Source: Lineus longissimus
Lineage: Eukaryota > Nemertea > Pilidiophora > Heteronemertea > Lineidae
Reading direction: 5' to 3'
Length of the DNA stretch: 64,000 nt
NCBI RefSeq assembly: GCF_910592395.1
Contig: NC_088318.1
Coordinates: forward strand, 9,858,349-9,922,348
The position numbers and the translations under genes are program-made. Below the pieces are notes generated by a model. The model was not told where the DNA came from and made no database searches. It saw nothing but the letters and a program-made list of their open reading frames with translations. Below, one piece after another: positions 8,316 through 57,173 of the stretch; within the stretch, counting starts at the first letter, position 1, and each line of letters starts with the position of its first letter.

Positions 8316-9586
8316 ATGAAACGGCCAGGGGCCATTGTGCTCACCGTATAGATATTTGGTGCTTTATAATTCATCCAGATTAAGAAACATTGTACATGTA
8401 TAGTATATAGGTCAAACCAAAGTCGGTATGACATGTGATGTATCGTTGCTTGGAGTAAGTACCATAAGAATATCATCAAAAACAAGTCAATAATAAACGA
8501 GATATTGCACTTTTTACCTATTTTAGTTTTGGCCTCCTGGTGGCCGAGTTGAGTACCAGATCAGATCGAAATTCGGTGTCCGAGGTTACATGACGTAGGG
8601 AGTCATGTGTATCAAATTTCAAGTTCAAAGCTTTAGTGGTTAAGAAACGTGCCATAGTTACAATCAAACGACAAATTTATGCCATTTGACCTCTGTGACC
8701 TTGAAAAGCAGGTCAGATCAAAAACTCATATGATATGTGATGTATCCTTGCTAGGAGAACCTACCATAAAAATGTTATTGAAAACGAATCACTAAAAATA
8801 AGCAAGATATTGCACTTCTTACTTTTTCCATTATGGCCCCCTGGTGGCCGAATAAAGAATCAGATCGAGCCAAAATTTGGCATCAGAGGTTATCTGATGT
8901 AGGGGGTTATATGCACCAAGTTTCAAGTTCACAGCTTTACTGGTTAAGAAACGTGCCATAGTTTACACTCTAACGGCCAATTTACGCCATATGACCTCTG
9001 TGACCTTGAAAAGTAGGTCAAATTGAAAACCCGTAAGATATGTGATGTATTCTTCCTAAGGGTACCTACCATAAAAATTTTATCGAAAACAAGTCACTTA
9101 TAAGCGAGATATCACACTTTTTAGATTTCCACTTTTGGCCCCCTGGTGGCAAAGTTGAGAATCAGATCAAACTGAAATTCAGCACCAGAGGCTATGTGAT
9201 ATAGGGGGTTATATGTACCAAGTTTCAAGTTCATAGCTTAAGTGGTTAAGAAACGTGCCATAGTTTACACTCTAACGGCCAATTTACGCCATATGACCTC
9301 TGTGACCTTGAAAAGTAGGTCAAATTAAAAACCCGTCTGATATAAGATTTATATTTGCTATGAGTACCTACAACAAAAGTTTCATCGAAAACAAGTCACT
9401 AATAAGCGAGATATCACACTTTTTAGATATCCACATTTGGCCCTCTGGTGGCCAAGTAGAGAATCAGATCGGACAGAAATTTAGTGTCACGGGTCATCTG
9501 ACCTAGGGGGTCATGTGTACAAAGTTTTAAGTTCATAGGCCTAGCGGTTAAGAAACGTGCCACTGTTTTTGAACTAGGATACGACG

Positions 9587-9621
<35 letters not shown>

Positions 9622-9677
9622 ACGACGGACGACGGACACTGCGGTATTGTATAGACTCCCCTTCGGTGAGCCAAAAA
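8316..9677 (+). mobile_element. Satellite-cored element, full copy 2 (Helentron/pearl-like architecture)
   Basis: The left end ATGAAACGGCCAGGGG(CC)ATTGTGCTCACCG is followed by about four core repeats of roughly 300 bp: AAGAAACGTGCCA recurs at about 8647, 8947, 9247 and 9549. A (CGA/CGG)n microsatellite follows at 9580-9637, then a right end with CGGTGAGCC. The words GCTCACCG at the left and CGGTGAGC at the right form short subterminal inverted repeats. Tandem cores followed by a microsatellite and a short tail recall the non-autonomous Helentron-derived pearl/HINE elements of molluscs. That comparison is inference. No ORF belongs to it; an arginine-rich frame is only the microsatellite read in frame. 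Confidence 0.75.
8687..8850. promoter_or_regulatory. DR3/ERR-like and CTCF-like words in a core unit
   Basis: On the minus strand 8687-8704 reads TCAAGGTCACAGAGGTCA: two AGGTCA half-sites spaced by three bases (DR3), the first being an extended TCAAGGTCA site. About 145 bases on, 8835-8850 reads GGCCCCCTGGTGGCCG, close to the reverse of the animal CTCF core. Both recur with variation in other core units (9136, 9438, 45661, 45961, 47215 for the CTCF-like word). Binding is not shown. Confidence 0.35.
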
Positions 9678-23206: not shown

Positions 23207-24706
23207 TTAGAAGTGTTGGTTGACTATTTGGTTCCTCGCAGCTGCTCCGTTAAGTCGACCAAAGGCAACAACATTTTCTACATCGTCATCATCGTCGTCA
23301 GGCTGTGGCTGTAGCTCGATTGGCTGTTCGTCAAAATCAGGGAGACCTCTGTGGATGGCAATATTATGCAACATTGCGCATGCAGAAATGATGCCGCAAG
23401 CTTTTAACGGTGTATAGCGGAGTTGTCCATGGAGGCAATGGAAACGCCTTTTCCACTGGCCTATTCCGAGACAAGACCACTAATGAATATTCATAGGTTG
23501 GAGGGTCGAGGCCTATCAATTAGACGAGTGCATGTTTTTTACTCTCAAGTACATATTTGGAGAGGTATTGAAAAAATATTTGCTGTGGCAAGTCTACAGA
23601 TATAAAGAAATTATTTGATGAAAAAATTAATTTCGAATTTTGCTAATTGGGTAATAGGGGGCGTGTTTTGAGTTTTTTCTGCCAGTTTGCTGAAAACAGT
23701 GGAAATATCAAAGTCTATCTAATTTGTCGATTATAAAAAAATTTCCGTGGTCAATCACCAATTTCCATCGCACCAGTTACTCGCAAGACTAACCCGTATA
23801 TCATATCCGAATTTCAGTTTCACTACTTGACGCATTCTTTGATGCGTCGCGGTCAAACATTGACAATTTAACTGCTAAAAGGTTAAAAAAATCAATTGTG
23901 GTCTTGTCTCTTCCCCTTTCTACCAAGCATCGAGTTTTTTTGTGGGAACGGTTGTATCGTCGCTGCTGCGGGGTGTTTGGGTTTAGGAAGGGTGTCATCA
24001 GCCATGGTCTTACTGGATACCCGCTGTCGCCTAGAAGGACTTCATTACCCTGCCAGACTTCCATCACTTCGGCTAGCCCACTTTCTCTCAAAATGATCGA
24101 ATCATGGGTGCTTCCAGGCCATCTCGCTACAACGTTTATGAATCGATAATGAGCATCCATGACCACCTGTACGTTGATAGAATAATAGTTTTTCCTGTTG
24201 ACGTATCTCCATTCGTGATGAGTAGAGCCAATGATCCAAACATGCGTACCATCAATCAACCCTATAATGCCAGGGAAGTTCGCTATTTCATAAAATGCTG
24301 CAGAAATACGAGGGATGTCTTGAAGCGCAGGGAATTTAATGATGTTGTGTAGCAAATGAATCAGTGCTTCCGTCACTTGCGTTATAATGCGGCTCATGCT
24401 GGGTTGGGAAATGTGTACCGTATCCCCGGTGACTTCCTGGAATGAACCCGAGGCATAAAATCTTAATGTTGCAAGCACCTTCAGGTCGGCTGGCAAAGCA
24501 TGGTTTCGGTCTGTTTGTGGCTCGATATAATTCCTAACAGCATCGACCAAGTCAAGAATCGTTTGCCTATCCAATCTGTAGCGTTGATATAATTGCAAGT
24601 CGTTGTAGATCTCAAGTGGGTGGACTCTGTCTCGAAAAATTCTCTCACGACGCATAGCACGCCTCGCATCCAAATCCATTTGCACTGCCAACATTAACGC
24701 AGCCAT
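23207..24706 (-). pseudogene. PIF/Harbinger DDE transposase interrupted by element M
   Basis: The gene starts at 24706 (MAALMLAVQMDLDARRAMRR). Motifs in order: VLATLRFYASGSFQ, SQPSMSRIITQV, GLIDGTHVWI (first Asp), RWPGSTHDSIIL, LLGDSGYPV (second Asp) and KKTRCLVERG (Glu). Here M (23468-23910) is inserted with a TTCC duplication (23464-23467 and 23911-23914). Beyond it, from 23463, the frame continues with the expected WKRRFHCLHGQLRY block and an acidic tail to TAA at 23207. No other break is visible, so the gene was intact until M landed in it. Confidence 0.88.
23468..23910 (-). mobile_element. Solitary M element inside the Harbinger 2 transposase
   Basis: It runs from GAGACAAGACCAC to GTGGTCTTGTCTC with 13-bp perfect inverted ends and a TTCC target duplication. 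In reverse orientation it matches the M repeats of the array at 30035-43043. The outer thirds are very close; the middle has diverged (GGGGGCGTGTTTTGAG in place of the M1-M4 middle), so it is a different subfamily member. It has no coding capacity. Confidence 0.9.
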
Positions 24707-30030: not shown

Positions 30031-30034
30031 CACT

Positions 30035-30465
30035 GAGACAAGACCACAATTGATTTTTCAAGCCATTTCCAGTTATTTAAAATGCCTGCCATTAAAGAAT
30101 GCGTGGAGCTGTGAAACTGAAATTCGGATATGATATACGGGTTAGTCTTGCGAGTAACTGGTGCGATGGAAATTGGTGATTGACCACGGAAATTTTTTTT
30201 AAAATTGACAAGTTTGACACAAGTGGACATTTTTACCCATTTCGGCCATTTTCACTCCAAATTTGAACCACCCCCCTATGGCCAGGTTGTCAAAATTCAA
30301 AATTATTTTTTTTACCAAACAATTTATTTATATCTGTAGACTTGCCACAGCAAATATTTTTTCAATACCTCTCCAAATATGTACTTGAGAGTAAAAAACA
30401 TGCACTCGTCTAATAGATAGGCCTGGACCCTCCAACCTATGAATATTCATTAGTGGTCTTGTCTC
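30035..30465 (+). repeat. M repeat 1
   Basis: 431 bp with 13-bp inverted ends. The left neighbour CACT is half of the target duplication of the whole array; the right neighbour is T module 1 (AATGAAGAGGG). Confidence 0.9.
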
Positions 30466-31193
30466 AATGAAGAGGGATAATCTTGAGATATCAATGAAAT
30501 ATGCCTTTTCCCAAGCATTTGAGATGTCTTGACTAACATAACCAAGTTTCATCAAAAATGAACTTGATTTGAGCGAGCTATTAACGTTTTAAAATTTTGT
30601 CCGATACGGACAACCTACCTTATATTTCGTCTTCAAATTGTTTACAGACTGTCTTCAAGTTAAGCTCATTAACTCGTAGAATTCTTAATCGAATGGTACC
30701 GAATCTTCGACAAATCACCAGTGGTCTACAGTCAATCTGAAATAGGAATTTGAAACAATTTTAATTCATGAGAAATATTCAAAAATTTCAATTTTTTGGA
30801 AAAAAATTGTCTTTTTAAAGGATGTTCCAAGGTTGTGACAGTGGTATCATGCTGAAAATGTCAAAATTTCAAATCGAACAATATTAACTTTGTCTGAAAT
30901 TTGAAAAACAACAAATATATGATGCATTATAAGCATGGAAAGCTTGTTAGTAAGGTGTGAAATGAGAAAAAGATTAACCCATATGTTATCTCCCTGTCTG
31001 TCACATCCAAGTCTGACACTTCCACAACAGCAACCATTGTCATCGCTATTGTCCTATCAACATCGACCCTTTTGTAATCTCTTGTCCTTTCTTGTGTATT
31101 TTCAGTCTGTTGAAGGAAGCATCCCGAAATAGACATCTCCTAGGAGTACGATTTTAAGCGAAGAAAGACAAGTATACGAAAAGACAAGACAAG

Positions 31194-33400
31194 ATGAGGA
31201 CAAAGGCGAGGAGATTGATAGGAAAACGGGGTTCTCCGAGGCGTGCTAGGGCATCGAATGCAGCAATGAGAACAATGTTCAAGAGCGGACACGTGCGGAG
31301 TGGAGGTGTCGAGGTGGTGAGCGACGACGAACGAGAAGTAGGCCTACAACCCACATGGAGACGACTCACGCCCCAGGAGTACGGACAGGTCACAACGATG
31401 GGACACGACGGCAAAAGACACATACCGGATATTAATAACCGTACTGCCAAGAATGTCAACTTACTACGGCTGAACATGAAAGAAGACACTGATGATGAGA
31501 TGGAGATACCAGATGAGACCATGGAGCATGATCACGAGAGTTTCGTTGTTCAGACAACCAAACTGATGGATGTGCTCAACGACGTTAACAGGGCCCATAG
31601 CGAATATCACGTGAACTGTCAGCCGATATTCAAATATGGAGAGGTACGTAAGCAGGGGGTGTGTTGTTCAGTCACTGTGGTGTGTAAAAACTGTGGTTTT
31701 TATTCGAAATTGTATAAACTTTTTGAGGACATAGACACTGGCAAGCGCGGACGAAAAGCCGCTCTTGCAAATGTTGCATTACAGATTGCGTTGCAGGACA
31801 CAATGATTGGCAACGAGAGTATGAGTTACATACTGAGCATGATGGGAATCCCGCCCCCCTGTAGGAGTATCATGCAAAAGCAGGCAAATAAGGTTGGTGA
31901 TGAAACAGTTAAAATGAATGTGGCCGATATGGCAGACATACGCGAGAACTTGAAAAGGATACTGCGCCTAAGAAATCAGGACGACACAGGAATCAATGTC
32001 CAAGCTGATGGACGCTATAATAGTTTACACCTCACTTCGAGGAACAAGATGGGCCGTTGTGCGAGCACAATGACTGGATTATGTGTTGAAAATGTGACAG
32101 ATGAACACAAAATCATTGACATTGAGGTTAAAACAAAACTCTGCTGGATAGGGGCTGCAATGCGGGCGAAAGGTTTTGAAGTTAAATGTGGTGCCACTGG
32201 CACAAACGTTGACGAACGACACTCGAAGTGCACGGCTAACTTTCCTGAAGCAGATGCATTCAGAGAATATGATCTTGGGGTTGCATTTGCCGAGACTTTT
32301 GAGAAACAGGGCCTACATGTAGAACATTTGACTACAGATGGTGATTCCAGTTCATTCAAAGGGTTAACTGATGCAACAAAAAAAAGCTCTTCGGCGGCTT
32401 GTTCACGGTGAAGCATCAACTTGACTCTATACATTTGCATCAAGCCCAGACGCGTGCAGGACATAGAGCTGAATTCAGTAAAGGTATGTTCCCGGGACGT
32501 ACTGCTGAGGAGAGAACACTGTTAAAAACAACGTTTCTGAATGATCTTAGGGTAAGGTCATCCAAGATTTTGCAATCTCTATTCAAGCGCTGCAACGGTG
32601 ATCTTGACAGGATCATGGGATACCTGTATGACACTGTTGCCTGTGTTGTGAACTGTTATGGTGGTGACTGCACTGGTTGTCCACAGAACGAATTCTCACT
32701 GTGCTCAGGCACAACTGGTTCTTGGTGGCACAAATCAACACGATGGTCATCTTACGGTGAGATTCCCAAGTTTAAAATGACAGTGATTGACAAGAACTTG
32801 GTACATCTCGTTTTGGAGGTATGCCTTAGTAAAGGAGCGTTGCAACAGCTGAGTCTTGGCGTGACAACCCAGGGGGTCGAGTCCAAGAATCGAGGTCTGT
32901 CGGCCAGCGATCCTAAGATTGTGACCAGGAGCAGGAACTCAACCCCTCGTATCCATTCAGCAGCCCACAGAATGAACCATAACATAGCCGAGAGCGGGCG
33001 ACGGAAACTAAAGTGGTTCAACATCGAAGTCGATACTTGTTGCCGCCCAATGAAAGCACTGGACAGAATTGCAATGAACAGGCAGTACACAGTCAGGTAC
33101 CAACGGAGTGCTAGACACCAGAAGTTAGCTGGTGTTTTGAAAAACATCAGGGCAACAGATTACTTCACCAAAAAGAAAAACAAAACCAGGGGTGGTGACT
33201 ACAAGAAACATGTGATGATAACAATGCCGGACTTGCGAAGGAAGGCTGTCAAGAAGGCTGTTGCACGACGAGACAGACCGCCTGTACCAGAGTGGAAATG
33301 TCTCGACCCAAACAGCAGAAACTATGACCACTCCTACTTTCGGCGATCCTTCAAGATCCAACCAGCCACCAAGACATCCAAGAGGTTGCCATCGCGGTAA
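31194..33400 (+). pseudogene. Mutator-like transposase, T copy 1 (frameshift in an A run)
   Basis: This is nearly identical to the intact copy at 39581-41785, where domains are described. Here the A run at 32378-32385 has eight bases where the other copies have six, so the frame breaks after residue 400 and resumes at 32399. All candidate catalytic residues are still encoded, on the two sides of the break. Because the difference is a homopolymer length in an otherwise identical copy, a sequencing error is a real possibility. Confidence 0.85.
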
Positions 33401-33944
33401 GAAAACTTTCAAATGTCAATTCAATATAATGATATTTTCTTTCAACTTCAACATATAGCTTACCAGGAAAAATGCATTTAGGGCGGTTGCCATGGCCTGC
33501 ACAGACTTTCTTGGCATTGCACCTTTTTCTACTTTGATTGACCCTTCCTCTTTCTATTGTCAAGTGCTCGACTTTCACGCACAGAGGATTATGACAAAGA
33601 TGACTTATATGATAACCTGCGCCAGTTTTGAATTTCAATTCATCATGGTCACACAAAAACATTGCCCGGTGTGCCGTCATTGTGACCGGCTTATCTAAAA
33701 AACTTACTTTAACAAACCCGTATGTTACCCCCCTCTTTTTTTGTTTAGCCCCCTCCCAATTCAAACAAAAACCATTACTTTTAGTCTTTGCTAATATTCT
33801 TGCTCGTAATTCAGATACTTTTCTCTTGAATTCACCTGCTGAAATAAAAAAATTAGTGAAAGCTTGGTACCCTGCCACCCAGCGTGCTCTGTGCCCGACA
33901 CCTCCCAAAATGAAAATAACATGCAAAACAATCAACACTTTCAT
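33351..33944 (-). CDS. I-PpoI-like His-Me finger endonuclease, T copy 1
   Basis: Its sequence is identical to copy 2 and differs from copy 3 at two residues (Phe82 and Val125 here). The motif analysis is given for the copy at 41736. The 3-prime end overlaps the transposase gene by 50 bp on the other strand. Candidate splice sites are an acceptor before 33838 (TTTTTTTATTTCAG) and a donor after 33464 (CTG/GTAAGC); if used, the hydrophobic first 35 residues would be intronic and the zinc/nuclease core would be a single exon. Confidence 0.75.
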   Translation of the reverse strand: MKVLIVLHVIFILGGVGHRARWVAGYQAFTNFFISAGEFKRKVSELRARILAKTKSNGFCLNWEGAKQKKRGVTYGFVKVSFLDKPVTMTAHRAMFLCDHDELKFKTGAGYHISHLCHNPLCVKVEHLTIERGRVNQSRKRCNAKKVCAGHGNRPKCIFPGKLYVEVERKYHYIELTFESFLTAMATSWMSWWLVGS

Positions 33945-34228
33945 TACTATTCACAATTGATGATTGTTATGAAACATATCTAGCCCAAAAAAGTAGAAAA
34001 ATTTGAAATTATTTGAAATTTTTTGAAAATTTAAATTTTTGGCATTTTCACTTAAAAGCCCTGTAGGCCAGGGGGGGGTTAAATTTGAGAATTTTCTTTT
34101 TTTCCACATTTTCCAATTTCAATGATATGTCCACACATTCTCAACACATTTCAGCCAATTCAAACGGTTTTTGTGGATTTCAGAGCTCATTTACTATTTT
34201 TGACCTGTAACCCAAAACCCTCTAAATA

Positions 34229-34660
34229 GAGACAAGACCACAATTGATTTTCCAAGCCATTTCCAGTTATTTAAAATGCCTGCCATTAAAGAATGCGTGG
34301 AGCTGTGAAACTGAAATTCGGATATGATATACGGGTTAGTCTTGCGAGTAACTGGTGCGATGGAAATTGGTGATTGACCACGGAAATTTTTTTTAAAATT
34401 GACAAGTTTGACACAAGTGGACATTTTTACCCATTTCGGCCATTTTCACTCCAAATTTGAACCACCCCCCCTATGGCCAGGTTGTCAAAATTCAAAATTA
34501 TTTTTTTTACCAAACAATTTATTTATATCTGTAGACTTGCCACAGCAAATATTTTTTCAATACCTCTCCAAATATGTACTTGAGAGTAAAAAACATGCAC
34601 TCGTCTAATAGATAGGCCTGGACCCTCCAACCTATGAATATTCATTAGTGGTCTTGTCTC
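34229..34660 (+). repeat. M repeat 2
   Basis: 432 bp between T modules 1 and 2. Its flanks are the T ends (CCTCTAAATA before, AATGAAGAGGG after) with no clear target duplication, as expected for an internal terminal repeat made by recombination. Confidence 0.9.
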
Positions 34661-35388
34661 AATGAAGAGGGATAATCTTGAGATATCAATGAAATATGCC
34701 TTTTCCCAAGCATTTGAGATGTCTTGACTAACATAACCAAGTTTCATCAAAAATGAACTTGATTTGAGCGAGCTATTAACGTTTTAAAATTTTGTCCGAT
34801 ACGGACAACCTACCTTATATTTCGTCTTCAAATTGTTTACAGACTGTCTTCAAGTTAAGCTCATTAACTCGTAGAATTCTTAATCGAATGGTACCGAATC
34901 TTCGACAAATCACCAGTGGTCTACAGTCAATCTGAAATAGGAATTTGAAACAATTTTAATTCATGAGAAATATTCAAAAATTTCAATTTTTTGGAAAAAA
35001 ATTGTCTTTTTAAAGGATGTTCCAAGGTTGTGACAGTGGTATCATGCTGAAAATGTCAAAATTTCAAATCGAACAATATTAACTTTGTCTGAAATTTGAA
35101 AAACAACAAATATATGATGCATTATAAGCATGGAAAGCTTGTTAGTAAGGTGTGAAATGAGAAAAAGATTAACCCATATGTTATCTCCCTGTCTGTCACA
35201 TCCAAGTCTGACACTTCCACAACAGCAACCATTGTCATCGCTATTGTCCTATCAACATCGACCCTTTTGTAATCTCTTGTCCTTTCTTGTGTATTTTCAG
35301 TCTGTTGAAGGAAGCATCCCGAAATAGACATCTCCTAGGAGTACGATTTTAAGCGAAGAAAGACAAGTATACGAAAAGACAAGACAAG

Positions 35389-37592
35389 ATGAGGACAAAG
35401 GCGAGGAGATTGATAGGAAAACGGGGTTCTCCGAGGCGTGCTAGGGCATCGAATGCAGCAATGAGAACAATGTTCAAGAGCGGACACGTGCGGAGTGGAG
35501 GTGTCGAGGTGGTGAGCGACGACGAACGAGAAGTAGGCCTACAACCCACATGGAGACGACTCACGCCCCAGGAGTACGGACAGGTCACAACGATGGGACA
35601 CGACGGCAAAAGACACATACCGGATATTAATAACCGTACTGCCAAGAATGTCAACTTACTACGGCTGAACATGAAAGAAGACACTGATGATGAGATGGAG
35701 ATACCAGATGAGACCATGGAGCATGATCACGAGAGTTTCGTTGTTCAGACAACCAAACTGATGGATGTGCTCAACGACGTTAACAGGGCCCATAGCGAAT
35801 ATCACGTGAACTGTCAGCCGATATTCAAATATGGAGAGGTACGTAAGCAGGGGGTGTGTTGTTCAGTCACTGTGGTGTGTAAAAACTGTGGTTTTTATTC
35901 GAAATTGTATAAACTTTTTGAGGACATAGACACTGGCAAGCGCGGACGAAAAGCCGCTCTTGCAAATGTTGCATTACAGATTGCGTTGCAGGACACAATG
36001 ATTGGCAACGAGAGTATGAGTTACATACTGAGCATGATGGGAATCCCGCCCCCTGTAGGAGTATCATGCAAAAGCAGGCAAATAAGGTTGGTGATGAAAC
36101 AGTTAAAATGAATGTGGCCGATATGGCAGACATACGCGAGAACTTGAAAAGGATACTGCGCCTAAGAAATCAGGATGACACAGGAATCAATGTCCAAGCT
36201 GATGGACGCTATAATAGTTTACACCTCACTTCGAGGAACAAGATGGGCCGTTGTGCGAGCACAATGACTGGATTATGTGTTGAAAATGTGACAGATGAAC
36301 ACAAAATCATTGACATTGAGGTTAAAACAAAACTCTGCTGGATAGGGGCTGCAATGCGGGCGAAAGGTTTTGAAGTTAAATGTGGTGCCACTGGCACAAA
36401 CGTTGACGAACGACACTCGAAGTGCACGGCTAACTTTCCTGAAGCAGATGCATTCAGAGAATATGATCTTGGGGTTGCATTTGCCGAGACTTTTGAGAAA
36501 CAGGGCCTACATGTAGAACATTTGACTACAGATGGTGATTCCAGTTCATTCAAAGGGTTAACTGATGCAACAAAAAAGCTCTTCGGCGGCTTGTTCACGG
36601 TGAAGCATCAACTTGACTCTATACATTTGCATCAAGCCCAGACGCGTGCAGGACATAGAGCTGAATTCAGTAAAGGTATGTTCCCGGGACGTACTGCTGA
36701 GGAGAGAACACTGTTAAAAACAACGTTTCTGAATGATCTTAGGGTAAGGTCATCCAAGATTTTGCAATCTCTATTCAAGCGCTGCAACGGTGATCTTGAC
36801 AGGATCATGGGATACCTGTATGACACTGTTGCCTGTGTTGTGAACTGTTATGGTGGTGACTGCACTGGTTGTCCACAGAACGAATTCTCACTGTGCTCAG
36901 GCACAACTGGTTCTTGGTGGCACAAATCAACACGATGGTCATCTTACGGTGAGATTCCCAAGTTTAAAATGACAGTGATTGACAAGAACTTGGTACATCT
37001 CGTTTTGGAGGTATGCCTTAGTAAAGGAGCGTTGCAACAGCTGAGTCTTGGCGTGACAACCCAGGGGGTCGAGTCCAAGAATCGAGGTCTGTCGGCCAGC
37101 GATCCTAAGATTGTGACCAGGAGCAGGAACTCAACCCCTCGTATCCATTCAGCAGCCCACAGAATGAACCATAACATAGCCGAGAGCGGGCGACGGAAAC
37201 TAAAGTGGTTCAACATCGAAGTCGATACTTGTTGCCGCCCAATGAAAGCACTGGACAGAATTGCAATGAACAGGCAGTACACAGTCAGGTACCAACGGAG
37301 TGCTAGACACCAGAAGTTAGCTGGTGTTTTGAAAAACATCAGGGCAACAGATTACTTCACCAAAAAGAAAAACAAAACCAGGGGTGGTGACTACAAGAAA
37401 CATGTGATGATAACAATGCCGGACTTGCGAAGGAAGGCTGTCAAGAAGGCTGTTGCACGACGAGACAGACCGCCTGTACCAGAGTGGAAATGTCTCGACC
37501 CAAACAGCAGAAACTATGACCACTCCTACTTTCGGCGATCCTTCAAGATCCAACCAGCCACCAAGACATCCAAGAGGTTGCCATCGCGGTAA
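35389..37592 (+). pseudogene. Mutator-like transposase, T copy 2 (frameshift in a C run)
   Basis: Nearly identical to the copy at 39581. The C run at 36049-36053 is one base shorter than in copies 1 and 3, which ends the first frame after 240 residues; the second frame (from 36066) covers the remaining 508 residues including all catalytic motifs. The break lies in the MGIPPPC segment before the DDE domain. As in copy 1, a sequencing error could explain a one-base homopolymer change. Confidence 0.85.
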
Positions 37593-38136
37593 GAAAACTT
37601 TCAAATGTCAATTCAATATAATGATATTTTCTTTCAACTTCAACATATAGCTTACCAGGAAAAATGCATTTAGGGCGGTTGCCATGGCCTGCACAGACTT
37701 TCTTGGCATTGCACCTTTTTCTACTTTGATTGACCCTTCCTCTTTCTATTGTCAAGTGCTCGACTTTCACGCACAGAGGATTATGACAAAGATGACTTAT
37801 ATGATAACCTGCGCCAGTTTTGAATTTCAATTCATCATGGTCACACAAAAACATTGCCCGGTGTGCCGTCATTGTGACCGGCTTATCTAAAAAACTTACT
37901 TTAACAAACCCGTATGTTACCCCCCTCTTTTTTTGTTTAGCCCCCTCCCAATTCAAACAAAAACCATTACTTTTAGTCTTTGCTAATATTCTTGCTCGTA
38001 ATTCAGATACTTTTCTCTTGAATTCACCTGCTGAAATAAAAAAATTAGTGAAAGCTTGGTACCCTGCCACCCAGCGTGCTCTGTGCCCGACACCTCCCAA
38101 AATGAAAATAACATGCAAAACAATCAACACTTTCAT
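37543..38136 (-). CDS. I-PpoI-like His-Me finger endonuclease, T copy 2
   Basis: This is 197 residues, identical in protein sequence to copy 1. It keeps every predicted zinc ligand, the catalytic His and the Asn. It is convergent with the transposase of the same module and overlaps its last 50 bases. Confidence 0.75.
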   Translation of the reverse strand: MKVLIVLHVIFILGGVGHRARWVAGYQAFTNFFISAGEFKRKVSELRARILAKTKSNGFCLNWEGAKQKKRGVTYGFVKVSFLDKPVTMTAHRAMFLCDHDELKFKTGAGYHISHLCHNPLCVKVEHLTIERGRVNQSRKRCNAKKVCAGHGNRPKCIFPGKLYVEVERKYHYIELTFESFLTAMATSWMSWWLVGS

Positions 38137-38419
38137 TACTATTCACAATTGATGATTGTTATGAAACATATCTAGCCCAAAAAAGTAGAAAAATTTGAAA
38201 TTATTTGAAATTTTTTGAAAATTTCAATTTTTGGCATTTTCACTTAAAAGCCCTGTAGGCCAGGGGGGGTTAAATTTGAGAATTTTCTTTTTTTCCACAT
38301 TTTCCAATTTCAATGATATGTCCACACATTCTCAACACATTTCAGCCAATTCAAACGGTTTTTGTGGATTTCAGAGCTCATTTACTATTTTTGACCTGTA
38401 ACCCAAAACCCTCTAAATA

Positions 38420-38852
38420 GAGACAAGACCACAATTGATTTTCCAAGCCATTTCCAGTTATTTAAAATGCCTGCCATTAAAGAATGCGTGGAGCTGTGAA
38501 ACTGAAATTCGGATATGATATACGGGTTAGTCTTGCGAGTAACTGGTGCGATGGAAATTGGTGATTGACCACGGAAATTTTTTTTAAAATTGACAAGTTT
38601 GACACAAGTGGACATTTTTACCCATTTCGGCCATTTTCACTCCAAATTTGAACCACCCCCCCCTATGGCCAGGTTGTCAAAATTCAAAATTATTTTTTTT
38701 ACCAAACAATTTATTTATATCTGTAGACTTGCCACAGCAAATATTTTTTCAATACCTCTCCAAATATGTACTTGAGAGTAAAAAACATGCACTCGTCTAA
38801 TAGATAGGCCTGGACCCTCCAACCTATGAATATTCATTAGTGGTCTTGTCTC
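38420..38852 (+). repeat. M repeat 3
   Basis: 433 bp between T modules 2 and 3. It differs from M2 mainly in the length of a C run (ACCACCCCCCCCTATGG). Confidence 0.9.
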
Positions 38853-39580
38853 AATGAAGAGGGATAATCTTGAGATATCAATGAAATATGCCTTTTCCCA
38901 AGCATTTGAGATGTCTTGACTAACATAACCAAGTTTCATCAAAAATGAACTTGATCTGAGCGAGCTATTAACGTTTTAAAATTTTGTCCGATACGGACAA
39001 CCTACCTTATATTTCGTCTTCAAATTGTTTACAGACTGTCTTCAAGTTAAGCTCATTAACTCGTAGAATTCTTAATCGAATGGTACCGAATCTTCGACAA
39101 ATCACCAGTGGTCTACAGTCAATCTGAAATAGGAATTTGAAACAATTTTAATTCATGAGAAATATTCAAAAATTTCAATTTTTTGGAAAAAAATTGTCTT
39201 TTTAAAGGATGTTCCAAGGTTGTGACAGTGGTATCATGCTGAAAATGTCAAAATTTCAAATCGAACAATATTAACTTTGTCTGAAATTTGAAAAACAACA
39301 AATATATGATGCATTATAAGCATGGAAAGCTTGTTAGTAAGGTGTGAAATGAGAAAAAGATTAACCCATATGTTATCTCCCTGTCTGTCACATCCAAGTC
39401 TGACACTTCCACAACAGCAACCATTGTCATCGCTATTGTCCTATCAACATCGACCCTTTTGTAATCTCTTGTCCTTTCTTGTGTATTTTCAGTCTGTTGA
39501 AGGAAGCATCCCGAAATAGACATCTCCTAGGAGTACGATTTTAAGCGAAGAAAGACAAGTATACGAAAAGACAAGACAAG

Positions 39581-41785
39581 ATGAGGACAAAGGCGAGGAG
39601 ATTGATAGGAAAACGGGGTTCTCCGAGGCGTGCTAGGGCATCGAATGCAGCAATGAGAACAATGTTCAAGAGCGGACACGTGCGGAGTGGAGGTGTCGAG
39701 GTGGTGAGCGACGACGAACGAGAAGTAGGCCTACAACCCACATGGAGACGACTCACGCCCCAGGAGTACGGACAGGTCACAACGATGGGACACGACGGCA
39801 AAAGACACATACCGGATATTAATAACCGTACTGCCAAGAATGTCAACTTACTACGGCTGAACATGAAAGAAGACACTGATGATGAGATGGAGATACCAGA
39901 TGAGACCATGGAGCATGATCACGAGAGTTTCGTTGTTCAGACAACCAAACTGATGGATGTGCTCAACGACGTTAACAGGGCCCATAGCGAATATCACGTG
40001 AACTGTCAGCCGATATTCAAATATGGAGAGGTACGTAAGCAGGGGGTGTGTTGTTCAGTCACTGTGGTGTGTAAAAACTGTGGTTTTTATTCGAAATTGT
40101 ATAAACTTTTTGAGGACATAGACACTGGCAAGCGCGGACGAAAAGCCGCTCTTGCAAATGTTGCATTACAGATTGCGTTGCAGGACACAATGATTGGCAA
40201 CGAGAGTATGAGTTACATACTGAGCATGATGGGAATCCCACCCCCCTGTAGGAGTATCATGCAAAAGCAGGCAAATAAGGTTGGTGATGAAACAGTTAAA
40301 ATGAATGTGGCCGATATGGCAGACATACGCGAGAACTTGAAAAGGATACTGCGCCTAAGAAATCAGGACGACACAGGAATCAATGTCCAAGCTGATGGAC
40401 GCTATAATAGTTTACACCTCACTTCGAGGAACAAGATGGGCCGTTGTGCGAGCACAATGACTGGATTATGTGTTGAAAATGTGACAGATGAACACAAAAT
40501 CATTGACATTGAGGTTAAAACAAAACTCTGCTGGATAGGGGCTGCAATGCGGGCGAAAGGTTTTGAAGTTAAATGTGGTGCCACTGGCACAAACGTTGAC
40601 GAACGACACTCGAAGTGCACGGCTAACTTTCCTGAAGCAGATGCATTCAGAGAATATGATCTTGGGGTTGCATTTGCCGAGACTTTTGAGAAACAGGGCC
40701 TACATGTAGAACATTTGACTACAGATGGTGATTCCAGTTCATTCAAAGGGTTAACTGATGCAACAAAAAAGCTCTTCGGCGGCTTGTTCACGGTGAAGCA
40801 TCAACTTGACTCTATACATTTGCATCAAGCCCAGACGCGTGCAGGACATAGAGCTGAATTCAGTAAAGGTATGTTCCCGGGACGTACTGCTGAGGAGAGA
40901 ACACTGTTAAAAACAACGTTTCTGAATGATCTTAGGGTAAGGTCATCCAAGATTTTGCAATCTCTATTCAAGCGCTGCAACGGTGATCTTGACAGGATCA
41001 TGGGATACCTGTATGACACTGTTGCCTGTGTTGTGAACTGTTATGGTGGTGACTGCACTGGTTGTCCACAGAACGAATTCTCACTGTGCTCAGGCACAAC
41101 TGGTTCTTGGTGGCACAAATCAACACGATGGTCATCTTACGGTGAGATTCCCAAGTTTAAAATGACAGTGATTGACAAGAACTTGGTACATCTCGTTTTG
41201 GAGGTATGCCTTAGTAAAGGAGCGTTGCAACAGCTGAGTCTTGGCGTGACAACCCAGGGGGTCGAGTCCAAGAATCGAGGTCTGTCGGCCAGCGATCCTA
41301 AGATTGTGACCAGGAGCAGGAACTCAACCCCTCGTATCCATTCAGCAGCCCACAGAATGAACCATAACATAGCCGAGAGCGGGCGACGGAAACTAAAGTG
41401 GTTCAACATCGAAGTCGATACTTGTTGCCGCCCAATGAAAGCACTGGACAGAATTGCAATGAACAGGCAGTACACAGTCAGGTACCAACGGAGTGCTAGA
41501 CACCAGAAGTTAGCTGGTGTTTTGAAAAACATCAGGGCAACAGATTACTTCACCAAAAAGAAAAACAAAACCAGGGGTGGTGACTACAAGAAACATGTGA
41601 TGATAACAATGCCGGACTTGCGAAGGAAGGCTGTCAAGAAGGCTGTTGCACGACGAGACAGACCGCCTGTACCAGAGTGGAAATGTCTCGACCCAAACAG
41701 CAGAAACTATGACCACTCCTACTTTCGGCGATCCTTCAAGATCCAACCAGCCACCAAGACATCCAAGAGGTTGCCATCGCGGTAA
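39581..41785 (+). CDS. Mutator-like DDE transposase of the M-T element, intact copy
   Basis: The 734-residue open frame starts at 39581, after a stop-rich stretch. A basic N-terminus (residues 1-35) suggests nuclear targeting. Residues 157-167 (CCSVTVVCKNC) may bind metal. The RNase H-like core shows QADGRY (Asp272), a KCGATGTNVDERHSKC block, TTDGDSSS (Asp382 or Asp384) and GVESKN (Glu562), with an inserted cysteine region CVVNCYGGDCTGC (483-495) followed by GSWWHKS. This order resembles the invertebrate Mutator-like transposase domain, where DG, GDGDSK and HC..G..SWC blocks occur. The likeness is from memory and distant. The C-terminus is Lys/Arg-rich. It should cut or join the ends of M. 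Confidence 0.75.
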   Translation: MRTKARRLIGKRGSPRRARASNAAMRTMFKSGHVRSGGVEVVSDDEREVGLQPTWRRLTPQEYGQVTTMGHDGKRHIPDINNRTAKNVNLLRLNMKEDTDDEMEIPDETMEHDHESFVVQTTKLMDVLNDVNRAHSEYHVNCQPIFKYGEVRKQGVCCSVTVVCKNCGFYSKLYKLFEDIDTGKRGRKAALANVALQIALQDTMIGNESMSYILSMMGIPPPCRSIMQKQANKVGDETVKMNVADMADIRENLKRILRLRNQDDTGINVQADGRYNSLHLTSRNKMGRCASTMTGLCVENVTDEHKIIDIEVKTKLCWIGAAMRAKGFEVKCGATGTNVDERHSKCTANFPEADAFREYDLGVAFAETFEKQGLHVEHLTTDGDSSSFKGLTDATKKLFGGLFTVKHQLDSIHLHQAQTRAGHRAEFSKGMFPGRTAEERTLLKTTFLNDLRVRSSKILQSLFKRCNGDLDRIMGYLYDTVACVVNCYGGDCTGCPQNEFSLCSGTTGSWWHKSTRWSSYGEIPKFKMTVIDKNLVHLVLEVCLSKGALQQLSLGVTTQGVESKNRGLSASDPKIVTRSRNSTPRIHSAAHRMNHNIAESGRRKLKWFNIEVDTCCRPMKALDRIAMNRQYTVRYQRSARHQKLAGVLKNIRATDYFTKKKNKTRGGDYKKHVMITMPDLRRKAVKKAVARRDRPPVPEWKCLDPNSRNYDHSYFRRSFKIQPATKTSKRLPSR

Positions 41786-42329
41786 GAAAACTTTCAAATG
41801 TCAATTCAATATAATGATATTTTCTTTCAACTTCAACATATAGCTTACCAGGAAAAATGCATTTAGGGCGGTTGCCATGACCTGCACAGACTTTCTTGGC
41901 ATTGCACCTTTTTCTACTTTGATTGACCCTTCCTCTTTCTATTGTCAAGTGCTCGATTTTCACGCACAGAGGATTATGACAAAGATGACTTATATGATAA
42001 CCTGCGCCAGTTTTGAATTTCAATTCATCATGGTCACACAAAAACATTGCCCGGTGTGCCGTCATTGTGACCGGCTTATCTAAAACACTTACTTTAACAA
42101 ACCCGTATGTTACCCCCCTCTTTTTTTGTTTAGCCCCCTCCCAATTCAAACAAAAACCATTACTTTTAGTCTTTGCTAATATTCTTGCTCGTAATTCAGA
42201 TACTTTTCTCTTGAATTCACCTGCTGAAATAAAAAAATTAGTGAAAGCTTGGTACCCTGCCACCCAGCGTGCTCTGTGCCCGACACCTCCCAAAATGAAA
42301 ATAACATGCAAAACAATCAACACTTTCAT
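41736..42329 (-). CDS. I-PpoI-like His-Me finger endonuclease, T copy 3
   Basis: The 197-residue frame has the zinc-bound beta-beta-alpha-metal pattern of the I-PpoI family: Cys60, then HISHLCHNPLC with His115 (general base), Cys117, Cys122 and His127, Asn136 (metal ligand), and a second site Cys142, Cys148, His151, Cys157. Relative to His115 the offsets are +2, +7, +12, +21, +27, +33, +36 and +42; in I-PpoI, as I recall, they are +2, +7, +12, +21, +27, +34, +36 and +40. Such enzymes nick or cut DNA, often as homing endonucleases. It is convergent with the transposase. Its hydrophobic first 20 residues could be an untrimmed intron rather than a signal peptide. Confidence 0.8.
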   Translation of the reverse strand: MKVLIVLHVIFILGGVGHRARWVAGYQAFTNFFISAGEFKRKVSELRARILAKTKSNGFCLNWEGAKQKKRGVTYGFVKVSVLDKPVTMTAHRAMFLCDHDELKFKTGAGYHISHLCHNPLCVKIEHLTIERGRVNQSRKRCNAKKVCAGHGNRPKCIFPGKLYVEVERKYHYIELTFESFLTAMATSWMSWWLVGS

Positions 42330-42612
42330 TACTATTCACAATTGATGATTGTTATGAAACATATCTAGCCCAAAAAAGTAGAAAAATTTGAAATTATTTG
42401 AAATTTTTTGAAAATTTCAATTTTTGGCATTTTCACTTAAAAGCCCTGTAGGCCAGGGGGGGTTAAATTTGAGAATTTTCTTTTTTTCCACATTTTCCAA
42501 TTTCAATGATATGTCCACACATTCTCAACACATTTCAGCCAATTCAAACGGTTTTTGTGGATTTCAGAGCTCATTTACTATTTTTGACCTGTAACCCAAA
42601 ACCCTCTAAATA

Positions 42613-43043
42613 GAGACAAGACCACAATTGATTTTCCAAGCCATTTCCAGTTATTTAAAATGCCTGCCATTAAAGAATGCGTGGAGCTGTGAAACTGAAA
42701 TTCGGATATGATATACGGGTTAGTCTTGCGAGTAACTGGTGCGATGGAAATTGGTGATTGACCACGGAAATTTTTTTTTAAATTGACAAGTTTGACACAA
42801 GTGGACATTTTTACCCATTTCGGCCATTTTCACTCCAAATTTGAACCACCCCCCTATGGCCAGGTTGTCAAAATTCAAAATTATTTTTTTTACCAAACAA
42901 TTTATTTATATCTGTAGACTTGCCACAGCAAATATTTTTTCAATACCTCTCCAAATATGTACTTGAGAGTAAAAAACATGCACTCGTCTAATAGATAGGC
43001 CTGGACCCTCCAACCTATGAATATTCATTAGTGGTCTTGTCTC
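42613..43043 (+). repeat. M repeat 4
   Basis: 431 bp, closing the array. It is followed by CACTCCGCCCTTGATAGG; CACT is the second half of the array's target duplication. Confidence 0.9.
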
Positions 43044-43047
43044 CACT

Positions 43048-43300
43048 CCGCCCTTGATAGGCCTACTGCATGCCATGTCATCCACGGTGTGGGTTCTACC
43101 AGGCCTGCCCCCATAGAGGAGACTATCTATGCAACTGCAATGACGAACATGAACATCTTCTAGAAGGATTCTCCTTTGGCCTGCCCCCTCAGAGGAGACT
43201 ATCCCTGTTATTGTAATATCGACCAGGGACATCTTCTACAAGGATTCTCCTTTGGGTTGGGGCACTCCGCCCTTGATAGGCCTACGTCTGTTACGGATCA
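43048..43300. repeat. Target-site minisatellite of the M-T array
   Basis: An approximately 80-bp unit with GGCCTGCCCC..AGAGGAGACTATC and GGATTCTCCTTTGG is repeated (about 43100-43180 and 43181-43256). GGGTTGGGGCACTCCGCC at 43256 is an unfilled version of the array's insertion site. Confidence 0.65.
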
Positions 43301-44966: not shown

Positions 44967-47460
44967 ATGAAACGGCCAGGGGCCATTGTGCTCACCGTAA
45001 GTATTTTTAGTAGACAGTTACAGAAAGTGCTACAGAATGACAATGGTGAATATATTTTTAACTTTGACCTCAGTGACCCTGACAGGTAGGTCAAATAACA
45101 AACCAGGGTGATATGTGATGTAGACACATCCACCTGACCATAACAATTTCATCACTCGTTACACTACAGCAATCGGCAAAAAACGATTTCCAAGATGGCC
45201 GCCTAATTAAATCTATGGCACCAAATAAATGAAAAAATGAAGAAAATGTAAGATAGAACTCAGAAAAGAAAAAAGGAAAAGATGAAAAATAAAAATATTT
45301 TTGGCTGTTCTTGACCGGGGTTTGAACTCACGACCTTTGGATTGCCACAATACGAGGAAAAACCCACAAAACAATTTCGGCCATATTTGAATTCCGATGT
45401 GGCTGAAACTTGGCATACAAATAGTGGCTTCTTAGATGCATCATTACACAAAATTAAAACTCTTTACATTGAACAACGACAAAACGTACCAAGAACGGTA
45501 AAGTTTTCAACTTTGACCTCTGTGAACTTGAAAGGTGGGTCAAATCAAAAACCCGTAAGATATGTGATGTATCCTTGCTAGGAGTATACCTACCATGAAA
45601 CTTTTATCAAAAACAAATCAGTAATAAGCGAGAAATCACACTTTTTGAGTTTTGAGTTTTGGCCCCCTGGTGGCCAAGTCAATAATCAGACCGAACCAAA
45701 ATTCAGTTTAAAAGGTCAACTGACCTAGGGGGTCATTTGTTCAAAGTTTCAAGTTCATTACTGTTGCGGTTGAGAAACGTGCCATAGTTACACTCAAACG
45801 GCAAATTTACGCCATTTGACCTCTGCGACCTTAAAAAGTAGGTCAAATCCGAAAAATCGTGCAACATCTGAGGTAACCTTGCTAGGGGTCCCTGCCATAA
45901 AAATTTCATCAAAAACAATTTGCTAATAAGAAGGCTATTGCACTTCTTACTTTTTCTGTTTTGGCCCCCTGGTGGCAAAGTCAAGAATCAGATCAGGCTG
46001 AAATTCAGCACCAGAGGTTATCTGATATAGGGGGTTATATGTACCAAGTTTCAAGCTCATAGCTTTGGTGGTTGAGAAACGTGCCATAGTTACACTCAAA
46101 CCAAGGAGGATACCGCGGTGACGTCACATCACGTGATCCCGACCCATATTAGTGATCGCTATGGCCAATCAGATTCAGTCTACTGACAGCACCAGCACTG
46201 AACACATCTCCACTTCTCACTGTCTGGTGCGCTCCTGTACACAAAAACACCAATAGACATGAAATATTGCAATACCTAGTATGGATTCTTCCTGTGTAAA
46301 ATAAAATTTACAGAGCAGATTAACTTCCACGAATAAAAAAGACGTTTGGCGTGGCCAAAGTGCGGAAATAATGTCTCCGCTAAAATACACTACGAAATAC
46401 ACTAGGCAATGCACTACGCAATATACAGTAGAGATGCAGTTGAGTTTGTTATTGTTTTGACTTAGAAGCCCGCCCATATCATAATATATTCATGTATTCA
46501 TGAAGTATGAACTCATTTCTGTCCCATACAACTCTAAGAACAGTCAATTTCTCCTTAAATCATCACCGAAACCGCGATATCCGCAGGAAGATTTCGTTCT
46601 AGTGTCCGAAAATGCATGATCTTACAGGGGCGCTAACTCGACAAATAGAGGGGATCTATGGGCATCTATGCGAGTTTTAGGTATTACAGGTTTCGAACTT
46701 GTAAAATCTGTAAACATGCCTCCAAATCCCATTATGATAATGAAGAGATTGCCCCATATCTGGGAGACTGTTTTGAAACCATCGCTAATTTGGAAGATCG
46801 GTGCCCGGCTATTTGGTTTAAAAAACCCTATTTTTCCCCATCAAAACAGCACTTTTCATTATTCAAATGATAGCTTATTGTCCGAAGACTTATTTCATAG
46901 CAGAAAAGTACTAATAACTCTGATTTGATGCGAAAAATCTAACTTTTTTGATGACTTGATTTTCCCTTGGCCGTGGATCGAGTTTGTTTACAATATGCAG
47001 CGCCATCTTGGAAAAGCCGTGACGTCACCGCGGTATCCTCCTTGACTCAAACGGTCAATTCACGCCATTTGACCTCTGCGACCTTGAAAAGTAGATCAAA
47101 TTAAAAACCCGTAAGATATATGATGTATCCTTGCTATGAGTACCTACCACAAAAGTTTTATCAAAAACAAGTCACTAATAAGCGAGATATCACACTTTTT
47201 AGATATCCACATTTGGCCCCCTGGTGGCCAAGTAGAGAATCAGATCGGACAGAAATTTAGTGTCACGGGTCATCTGACCTAGGGGGTCATGTGTACAAAG
47301 TTTTAAGTTCATAGGCCTTGCGGTTAAAAAACGTGCCACTGTTTTTGAACTAGGATACGACGGACAACGACGACGACGACGACGACGAAGACGACGACGA
47401 CGACGGACGACGACGGACGACGGACACTGCGGTATTGTAAAGACTCCCCTACGGTGAGCC
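44967..47460 (+). mobile_element. Satellite-cored element, full copy 3, holding an hAT-like MITE
   Basis: It has the same left end (ATGAAACGGCCAGGGG), core units of about 300 bp, CGA-rich microsatellite (47357-47427) and right end (CGGTGAGCC) as the copy at 8316. It lies within a GGTAC minisatellite whose two parts flank it without an obvious duplication, consistent with insertion into an A-rich site. A 943-bp hAT-like element interrupts the third core unit. Confidence 0.8.
46102..47044. mobile_element. Non-autonomous hAT-like element, 8-bp duplication
   Basis: The ends CAAGGAGGATACCGCGGTGA... and its mirror form a perfect 26-bp inverted repeat containing GTGACGTCAC. ACTCAAAC flanks both sides (46094-46101, 47045-47052), the 8-bp duplication typical of hAT. 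Removing it restores the core unit of the host satellite element. It encodes nothing recognised. Confidence 0.88.
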
Positions 47461-52600: not shown

Positions 52601-55600
52601 ACCAGTCAAGCATTGGGAAAGCATCTTTAATTCTCAATGCTATTTCAATTTCATCTCAAACATGTCTTTTTACAGACCCACCCCTTACACAGACAATGGG
52701 TAACATCAAGTCTTCTGTTTTCAAAGTGTTGGAGAAAGTGTTTTAGGCCTACTTCAGTAGCTGAACTGATAAAACACTGTCCAAGATCAGCAAAGCAGCA
52801 ACTGAGAATGGTGTCAACAATGTTTTTAACAGAAACAAGCCTCAAACACTTTCCCCAACACTTTCAAACCCAAGACTTTACCTCACCCAGTGAGTGATGC
52901 ACTCTGAACTATACTTACCAAGAACTGTCTCCACCCTCATTCTCTGGCTAGGATAATGTAATCCATACAACAGTTTACTATCGCTAGGATAACCCAATGC
53001 TCCCTCCATCCAATACTCGGGGGCCCATTTAATTTGCTGTTAAGCAGATTTCTCAATCTAGTCTAATTCTGTTTTATACGTAAATTAATTTCGCTTCATT
53101 TGTTGTATTTTTTTCTCCAGAACGTTTCAATCAGACATTGGAAGCAATGCTACTAAAGATGGAGCCAGGTGATGACTGGGAGAACCAATTGCCTCAAGTC
53201 GTGTTCGCGTACAACACCTCAAAGCACGCCTCAACGGGATTTTCTCCCTTTTTCCTCATGTATGGCAGGTAATTATTGGTCTTCTGTTGTCTAAAAGGAA
53301 AGGAAAATTGACCCAAACTTTTGACACCAAAAAAGTCTTAAATTCAGCTTAGATTGATAATAAGTAAGTGATTCGTTCTGACATGTACTTACCGGTTTCC
53401 AAGTACTAACTGGTTATCAATATTGTTTTAAGCGCTGCGTGTGTAGCTATAAGTGGTTACAATATCCTTGAATCACTCTTATTATGTGTCGCGCAAGTTC
53501 AATCATTATTCATTTTAGGGAACCCATTCTTCCTGAAGATGTGGATGAACCTGAGGGAAACGCCGAAGCAGACGAACCCCGACCAAGTGGGAGTGAACAA
53601 CATGCAGAGGTCAATAAGAGAGTTACTAGAATGCGAGGTCTATAGGGCAGAAAGTGCTTAAAAACATCAAGAAGGCCCAGGGGCGACAAGAAACGCATTA
53701 CAACAAGAGGAGGATCTCTCAAAACGTGAGTGTTAGACAAAACGTATTCATGTATTATTCAAATTACAAATTACAAATTACAAATTACAAAAGTTTATTG
53801 AATCCGTATAAAATTTACATTTTACATGGGACGAAAACACAATAAACAGTGCAGTGCAGATAGAGAGTCAGAAGAAAAGAGAGTAATAAGTAATAAAAGT
53901 AATCAAATAATACAGAAATTACTTAAGAGTGCAAGAGAGTTAGTGGGCATTATTACAATGATTGCAGCAGTATTTTTAATAATTATAGAGCTTTCCTCAC
54001 CTGAAATGCTAGATAACAGAATTTGCCGGTGAGGCGAGCTACATTGCCTTCAGCAGTTAAAAGATATAATAATAGATTTCTATTTGAAAGTTCATTTGTT
54101 AACCCAATTCGAGTTTTGTTCAAATATTTATCACGAAGGTTAGAGAGCAAAGGGCATGAACACAAAAAGTGAGTCTCATCTTCAGTTTCTTTGATTCCCA
54201 ATGATAAACAGTGAGGGCACCATCTCTCATCCCTGGGGATAATAGGACGAGAGTAGCGGCCTTTCTCGATTAAAAGACAATGATTACTCAGTCTTAATTT
54301 GGTAAAATGGGACCTGTGTTCCCTATTTTGAATATCATCGAGATAATTTTCGTAGCAAAATCTATTTTTAAAAGCTACATATGTACAAAATTTCCCCTCA
54401 TTTAAATCAATGTACTTCTGATAGAACTTTTCAAACCAGAACGATTTATAACGCTCCTTCATATGTTCCTTGATTGTTTTAGAGGAGATGTCTGGGTTAC
54501 ATAAATCAAAATTTATTTTCTTCGACAATTCCTTATAAAAAGAGAACCAGGAGTAAAAGCCCTTGGAGTGTAACAACTTTGATTCAGTAAAAGCATCTTT
54601 TAAAACTGGATTGTCGGTATTATCTAGGTGTGTGTGGTAATTATAGATTTTACATATTATATCAATCCCAATAGGGAATCTCCCAAGTTCGCTCATAGTG
54701 GGAATATTACCAGCCTTTTTATTTACACCGAGAAGAAATTTGCAAAAGCTAATATTAACATGTTCAATGACAGAATCATACCACTTCTGCTCAGTGGACC
54801 AGACTCCATGAAACTTGCCTTTCCGAAGATCTTCGGCCGACCAAATTTCGGCCCCATATGTACAAATGGGAGATATGAGTTTGTCAAACAAATTTAATCC
54901 ACTTTTGGGGTTGATCCCAGTATTACGTAGGCAAGCACGTATACTAAATAGAGCCTTCTTAGCTTTACAAGAAGCATTTATTTTAGCATTTGTAAAAGAC
55001 CCTGAAGAACTCAATACAACTCCCAAATATTTATAAGAAGTGCAGTTCTCCAACAAGACACCCTTAAAAAAGAAAGAATCTTTACCTACATGTCCATTTC
55101 CACATAGTTTCATCACTTTCGTCTTCTTTATATTTATCTCTAAATTCCAAGTATTACAAAAAAGTTCAAGTTGTCTTAACATTGAGTGAAGGCCCTTAGC
55201 AGTTCTGGACAGAATAATTAAATCATCTGCATAAAAAAGATGTTCGATAAAACGGCCATTTAGGCAAGGAATATGTTCCTCAGCATCAATATTTTGAGAC
55301 AGGTTTGTAGGAAGGTCATTTATGAAAAGGTTAAAAAGAAGGGGGCTCAAAGTGTCACCTTGTTTGACCCCATTTGTACAGTTAAAAAAGGAGCTTTGAC
55401 GACTATTTGAGCGAACGCATGCAGAGCTCTGTTGATACATCTTCTTGATAACATTGTAGAAATTACCACGAATATTGTACTTAAGTAATTTAAGGAAAAG
55501 ACCATTATGCCATACACTATCATATGCCTTGCGGAAATCAACGAAGCAAGCAAAAAGGGGGGTCTTGCTCTTTTTTATATATTTATCAACAAGAGTGTGG

Positions 55601-57124: not shown

Positions 57125-57173
57125 TATGCCGAATCCCAGAAATAATAAATCCCAATCCATTTAATAGACTGTA

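Follow-up and report, generated by a model that had tools for sequence, protein, structure and literature searches.

The transposons described as KolobokP (Kojima & Bao 2022, Mob DNA 13:24, PMC9587614) carry a transposase and an I-PpoI-like nuclease between direct repeats termed LTDRs. In the part of that paper accessible to us, which underlies everything we report from it, 228 families are counted, the nemertean Lineus longissimus stands among the hosts in Table 1, and the elements are characterised as follows: (i) the LTDRs are ~450 or 660 bp long, with terminal inverted repeats (TIRs) of their own (11-18 bp) and RR..YY ends; (ii) the target site duplications (TSDs) are 3-5 bp long and have no fixed sequence; (iii) the transposase gene lies in forward orientation, with the nuclease gene downstream on the complementary strand; (iv) with the internal unit written as INT, solo LTDRs, (LTDR-INT)n-LTDR multimers and LTDR-(INT)n-LTDR forms occur; (v) the autonomous elements of the Pacific oyster measure 4.0-4.7 kb. 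A full-text literature search returned no further publication on KolobokP in the library covered. Here we analyse a 64,000-nucleotide stretch of the L. longissimus genome, hereafter the window (RefSeq assembly GCF_910592395.1, contig NC_088318.1, positions 9,858,349 to 9,922,348 of the forward strand), in which the block at positions 30035-43043 is almost certainly a trimeric KolobokP transposon of the form (LTDR-INT)3-LTDR. A preliminary description, made from the sequence alone, had named the LTDRs M and the INTs T, and had supposed that no described family joins such repeats to these two enzymes. That supposition fails: KolobokP has exactly this combination, in this very species, and both the kind of element and its host were already known. 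The array is laid out as follows.

30031..30034, no strand: left TSD of the whole array, CACT
30035..30465, + strand: LTDR 1 (M1), 431 bp, with 13-bp TIRs
30466..34228, + strand: INT 1 (T1), 3763 bp; transposase frame broken by an A-run length change at 32378-32379
33351..33944, - strand: His-Me finger nuclease frame of INT 1, 197 aa
34229..34660, + strand: LTDR 2 (M2), 432 bp
34661..38419, + strand: INT 2 (T2), 3759 bp; transposase frame broken by a C-run length change
37543..38136, - strand: His-Me finger nuclease frame of INT 2, 197 aa
38420..38852, + strand: LTDR 3 (M3), 433 bp
38853..42612, + strand: INT 3 (T3), 3760 bp, both frames open
39581..41785, + strand: DDE transposase of INT 3, 734 aa, PF20700
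41736..42329, - strand: I-PpoI-like His-Cys box nuclease of INT 3, 197 aa, PF05551
42613..43043, + strand: LTDR 4 (M4), 431 bp
43044..43047, no strand: right TSD of the whole array, CACT

Coordinates and alignment bear out the anatomy first proposed, namely four M repeats with 13-bp inverted ends alternating with three T modules of 3.76 kb and CACT outside only, except that the repeats, given as 432 bp, are 431-433 bp long. All four LTDRs start with GAGACAAGACCAC and finish with GTGGTCTTGTCTC, which gives their inverted ends the form GA..TC. CACT is duplicated only at the outer borders of the array, and the inner LTDRs are bounded by AATA on the left and AATG on the right. The INTs end in AATGA-AGAGGG...CCCTCT-AAATA, that is, in a 6-bp inverted repeat lying 5 nt inward of each end. 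M2-M4 are 99.3-99.5% identical to M1, and T1 and T2 are 99.8% identical to T3, so the array is young. Among the INTs, five substitutions separate T1 and T2 from T3, one marks T1 and one marks T2. The nuclease frame is intact in all three, and the homopolymer length changes that break the transposase frame in T1 and T2 could be assembly errors.

By Pfam profiles, the 734-aa frame of INT 3 belongs to PF20700 (E 9.7e-53) and the convergent 197-aa frame to PF05551 (E 3.5e-13), in agreement with the DDE transposase and opposed His-Me nuclease that had been proposed. A pattern match places the transposase motifs in the order D272, CCHC (317-346), D382, DxxH (410-413), cysteine-rich finger (483-503) and E562, the three acidic residues being assigned from the order given in the accessible text of PMC9587614 and not by alignment to Kolobok proteins. 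This is the KolobokP layout, with a CCHC finger after the first D, and C/DxxH plus a finger between the second D and E. MuDR/Mutator elements make TSDs of ~8-11 bp. We therefore reject the Mutator superfamily: PF20700 is 'Mutator' in its Pfam name only, and the 4-bp TSD and zinc-finger layout fit KolobokP rather than Mutator. Of the earlier label 'Mutator-like transposase', the DDE assignment holds and the Mutator part does not.

The nuclease, when compared with the I-PpoI chains of the Protein Data Bank (1evw, 1cz0, 1a73), gave a best E of 0.021, which is weak alone. At the positions equivalent to S97, H98, C100, C105, H110, E114 and N119 of I-PpoI, which are named in the accessible text of PMC9587614 or are zinc ligands, all seven residues are identical, and His115 and Asn136 are the predicted catalytic residues of the array's enzyme. 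Over the aligned part the two proteins thus have catalytic and zinc residues in common, but I-PpoI sits in a group I intron and the array nuclease does not. A structure predicted from the single sequence reached a mean predicted local distance difference test score (pLDDT) of 36.9, too low for a fold search. Among phage HNH proteins, 172 records are distantly alike, all below 60% identity and none covering 80% of the query.

Two other kinds of element invite comparison. LTR retrotransposons and their miniature relatives, the terminal-repeat retrotransposons in miniature (TRIMs), share with the array solo, paired and tandem-shared terminal repeats, and this LTR-like logic of M, noted at the outset, does recur across the genome. 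Here, in contrast, Pfam profiles detect no reverse transcriptase in either main frame or in 9 of the 16 further frames (60 aa or longer) of M3-T3-M4, these 9 giving sub-threshold matches only, which upholds the original statement that T lacks this enzyme for the frames scanned; no RNA route is indicated, the LTDR ends are 13-bp TIRs and the transposase is of the DDE type (PF20700). With this coding content, the block has next to no chance of being an LTR retrotransposon or a novel LTR-like class. In bacterial composite transposons and IS6-type pseudo-composites, which the accessible text of PMC9587614 discusses, cargo lies between direct mobile repeats, each movable alone; the transposase of the bacterial composites is in the flanking units, whereas that of the array is in the cargo.

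Copies elsewhere in the genome show the same unit in all its forms. The transposase has at least 66 genome matches, 22 of which span residues 1-734 without a stop; 61 of 209 candidates were scored, and these counts are lower bounds. A pattern search allowing up to 2 mismatches found 39 LTDR-to-INT junctions. All three monomers that were read from end to end have duplicated targets (CTCA, AGCA, TTTA), as do four of four other pairs of LTDRs that enclose a transposase match and were read at their outer flanks only (ATCA, AGAC, GTAG, GGAT); two more monomer candidates, L041 and L046, each with one flank only, were left out of these counts. The one-T units that the preliminary description had advised looking for therefore exist, with 4-bp TSDs in 7 of 7, and together with the 39 junctions they substantiate the linkage of M to T. 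The solitary M copies that it had also advised looking for occur as well, and six of six solo LTDRs carry 4-bp TSDs; two others among the eight candidates, L032 and L033, proved to be LTDR-INT ends. A dimer on contig C14 has a CGAT duplication. Set against the published features, the LTDRs of the array fall in the shorter length class (431-433 versus ~450 bp), their TIRs agree (13 bp with GA..TC versus 11-18 bp with RR..YY), the TSDs of this genome are 4 bp long (CACT for the array, TTCC for the solo LTDR described next, and those of the monomers and solo LTDRs), the monomer at C15:3321339-3325961 measures 4623 bp, and solo LTDRs, monomers and multimers are all present in one genome.

The window itself contains a solitary copy and an empty site of the array:

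23468..23910, - strand: solo LTDR of a related subfamily, TTCC on both sides, 83.8% identical to M1 over 444 aligned columns
43249..43285, + strand: paralogous empty site of the array with a single CACT, 97.4% identical over 38 columns spanning the joined flanks

The diverged solitary M at 23468, with its 4-bp duplication, is thus real. It splits a DDE_Tnp_4 transposase frame, with profile positions 1-122 before it and 124-158 after it, and its flanks, when joined with one TTCC, form a single open frame. Empty sites, another item recommended for checking, were accordingly found for this solo LTDR, for the array and, as intact copies of a miniature inverted-repeat transposable element (MITE), for the C13 and C14 insertions treated below.

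Some observations weigh against the assignment to KolobokP or against its particulars: (i) three of the four flank-only monomers measure 5.0-5.5 kb, a length that implies extra DNA inside them. (ii) The likeness at the empty site 43249-43285 stops ~19 nt to either side, and searching the window for a 46-nt stretch of the joined flanks, with as many as 4 mismatches allowed, turned up no further copy, so that the paralogous empty site is a short one. (iii) Relatives were not confirmed among viral contigs and GTDB prokaryote contigs. (iv) INT-INT junctions have lost 5 bp in this genome, whereas in KolobokP they lose 3-4 bp 'almost always' according to the accessible text of PMC9587614; given that wording, and given the 1-5 bp lost there at single-LTDR excisions, we take the 5-bp loss as a variant and not as a defining difference. 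(v) The TSDs are not TTAA, unlike those of classical Kolobok, although those of KolobokP are likewise not TTAA.

The INT-INT junctions come from two clusters on C13. The larger is an array of 122.7 kb with 16 INTs and 5 LTDRs, in which 12 of the INTs form one run; in the accessible part of PMC9587614, no run longer than (INT)4 is named. The array has ATCG on both outer flanks and interrupts a single MITE that has inverted ends of 26 bp and is still bordered by its own intact duplication, AGCATTAAT. An unoccupied copy of this MITE is found in the window:

46102..47044, + strand: intact MITE 'X', 943 bp, 26-bp TIRs, 8-bp duplication ACTCAAAC

With its single ATCG at 46977-46980, this copy represents the empty site of the C13 array, and the best 40 of 654 candidate MITE copies genome-wide are all unbroken at the ATCG site. 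The two KolobokP multimers of C13 and C14 occupy the same ATCG/CGAT position of MITE copies, and two further MITE copies (L057, L059) carry other LTDR subfamilies there. A hotspot, co-mobilisation or replacement may account for the shared position, and the C13 and C14 copies may be one insertion carried along or two insertions.

All 12 INT-INT junctions of the C13 array read CCCTCT-AATGA-AGAGGG, and the second cluster, at C13:10296480-10313821, reads CCCTCT-AAATA-AGAGGG in 3 of 3; each junction seen (15/15) retains exactly one of the two INT terminal 5-mers. The 15 of 16 INTs of the large array that were compared (12 uninterrupted and 3 of the 4 interrupted) share alleles at 3 sites that are absent from 8 INTs elsewhere. 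As each cluster has one junction type, it is enough to suppose that a single LTDR was lost and that INT-INT units were then amplified; repeated LTDR excision is unneeded. Assembly may have affected the copy number of the C13 array, against which stand the private substitutions carried by most of its INT copies. The preliminary description had held that T without flanking M would make the M-T link accidental; such units do occur in part, as these tandems, the large array being bounded by LTDRs and the second cluster keeping only a partial LTDR. The inverted ends of INT were also considered as proof of a separate transposon and set aside as weak, since a related subfamily in this genome lacks a matching 6-bp repeat, its INTs ending in AATGA-AGGTACA... 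and ...GTAGTGT-AAATA/AAATG.

How do such arrays grow? We propose that the LTDRs are MITE-like units and that the INT-encoded transposase would act on their TIR-bearing ends, moving either a single LTDR, which becomes a solo LTDR, or LTDR-INT-LTDR as one composite, with TSDs of 4-5 bp. Within one insertion, recombination between the long direct repeats would then expand a monomer to an array, which is why the TSD would lie on the outermost LTDRs only; we infer such an LTDR-LTDR exchange as the origin of the trimer. Circle integration and nuclease-induced exchange, both put forward in the accessible text of PMC9587614, are the alternatives for this step. To homologous unequal exchange between LTDRs (or between INTs) alone, with the nuclease gene uninvolved, we assign an even chance. 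It accounts for the single outer TSD and constant inner junctions, and the five substitutions that set T1 and T2 apart from T3 could arise from copying of units in place; INTs with no LTDR between them were amplified too in the C13 array, with 12 of 12 identical junctions and shared alleles at 3 sites in 15 INTs. It leaves unexplained why the nuclease frame has stayed intact in each of the three INTs of the window. Under the hypothesis of Kojima & Bao (accessible text of PMC9587614), by contrast, the His-Me enzyme cuts an LTDR, and units are added when the wrong LTDR serves as the repair template. The seven residues identical to those of I-PpoI agree with this, and TIRs facing each other across a 4-nt spacer, of which the genome holds 26 sites, form a palindrome that could suit an enzyme leaving 4-nt overhangs, as I-PpoI does (same source). 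The cleavage site and activity are putative, however, and INT-INT amplification in the absence of LTDRs needs another cut site or none; we hold this route to be possible, with the balance somewhat against it.

The facing ends were found by searching for two TIRs that face each other across 2-8 nt, with the reversed pattern as control. There are 41 such places, 26 with a spacer of 4 nt, 11 with 5, 2 with 3 and 2 with 2; the genome search returned none with 6-8 nt, and the control pattern none at all. Random expectation is 0.04 facing pairs if there are 1,493 elements, a number of unscored first-look candidates that may be an over- or undercount. Merging places with the same contig and spacer leaves 34 groups. 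Thirty-six of the 41 were read, and 26 of these show a non-INT flank beyond the pair, either host DNA or, in chains (L068, L071, L076, L080), the next spacer. Every such flank equals the spacer in 20 of the 26 testable places, or in 18 of 24 when the 2-3-nt spacers are omitted (a 4-nt flank within a 5-nt spacer was allowed as a match, and 2 of the 20, with 2- or 3-nt spacers, are weak). As to the exceptions, L057 and L065 do not match; in L062, L076 and L080 (second junction) the flank that fails to match adjoins another LTDR end; and L061 matches once inverted. At the last of these (C11:9121102) both outer flanks read AGAA and the spacer TTCT, which looks like inversion by recombination between two oppositely oriented LTDRs.

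Of 19 pairs of facing LTDRs that were compared, with partial and truncated copies counted (the second LTDR of L049 was cut short at an internal look-alike), 16 are less than 96% identical, as are 9 of the 12 pairs with both ends of both LTDRs found. This divergence of more than 4% argues that the facing LTDRs are mostly separate insertions, and the flank-spacer matches argue that later elements took the TSD of a resident element as their target. An origin from tandem-dimer or circle intermediates, as in the IS3/IS256 junctions of insertion sequences, whose ends are separated by donor flank, could also yield 41 facing junctions, 37 of them with spacers of TSD length. A circle with a foreign donor flank is not expected to give flanks equal to spacers, nor do separate insertions suit it, and we disfavour it as quite improbable. 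Transposons with a fixed target (TA, TTAA) form such facing pairs trivially; here, in contrast, the target sequence varies. Re-use of TSDs between LTDRs is not mentioned in the accessible part of PMC9587614, nor did general literature searches (titles and abstract openings) find it.

Loss of INT was also considered as a source of these spacers. Excision leaving LTDR-AAATG/AATGA-LTDR was not borne out, and the A/T-rich spacers of L068, L070, L071 and L072, examined as excision scars, are ordinary re-used TSDs. Of the remaining A/T-rich spacers, L073 alone could qualify (C6:7416848, INT-LTDR-AAT-LTDR-INT): at this ambiguous place an INT may have been cleanly removed from between two LTDRs, with 3 nt left behind. 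At C4:12018301-12018350 (L071), two larger LTDRs enclose a miniature element of 50 bp that has both LTDR ends and is flanked by AAAT on either side.

The window holds other repeats as well. A family at 8317-9672 and 44968-47460, also present as four nested copies inside the C13 array, starts with TGAAACGGCCAGGGG and finishes with CCCCTACGGTGAGCC, contains tandem ~300-bp units and an ACG microsatellite near the end, and occupies A-rich sites with little or no duplication; we take it to resemble Helentron-type elements. RVT_1 frames and a DUF1759 frame at 53983-55818, 57161-58531 and 59262-59822 are probably the remains of retroelements.

Within an already described kind of element, the added value of this genome is the self-targeting pattern and the giant array: the 122.7-kb array of 16 INTs, the 5-bp junction loss and the LTDRs that re-use each other's TSDs go beyond the accessible text of PMC9587614. 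KolobokP is a composite-like eukaryotic DNA transposon, and the genome of L. longissimus bears on how its paired ends are kept. Facing junctions with shared TSDs, and an array that lies inside one MITE and has INT-INT junctions of a single type, help to distinguish among three models, namely self-targeted insertion, repeat-repeat exchange and circle intermediates; such arrays also illustrate how a transposon can become a satellite-like tandem repeat. We also entertain, as a rather unlikely proposal, that KolobokP prefers the TSD beside a resident TIR, building chains of LTDR-(4-5 nt)-LTDR, and that the composite itself is perhaps such a chain, because the INT core AGAGGG...CCCTCT is set off from the LTDRs by the 5-mers AATGA and AAATA, and because loss of an LTDR leaves one 5-mer between INT cores, as would two insertions sharing one TSD. 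If this were true, self-targeting by the transposase would make and re-make the paired ends, and a captured homing nuclease would have a natural palindromic site wherever TIRs face each other across 4 nt.

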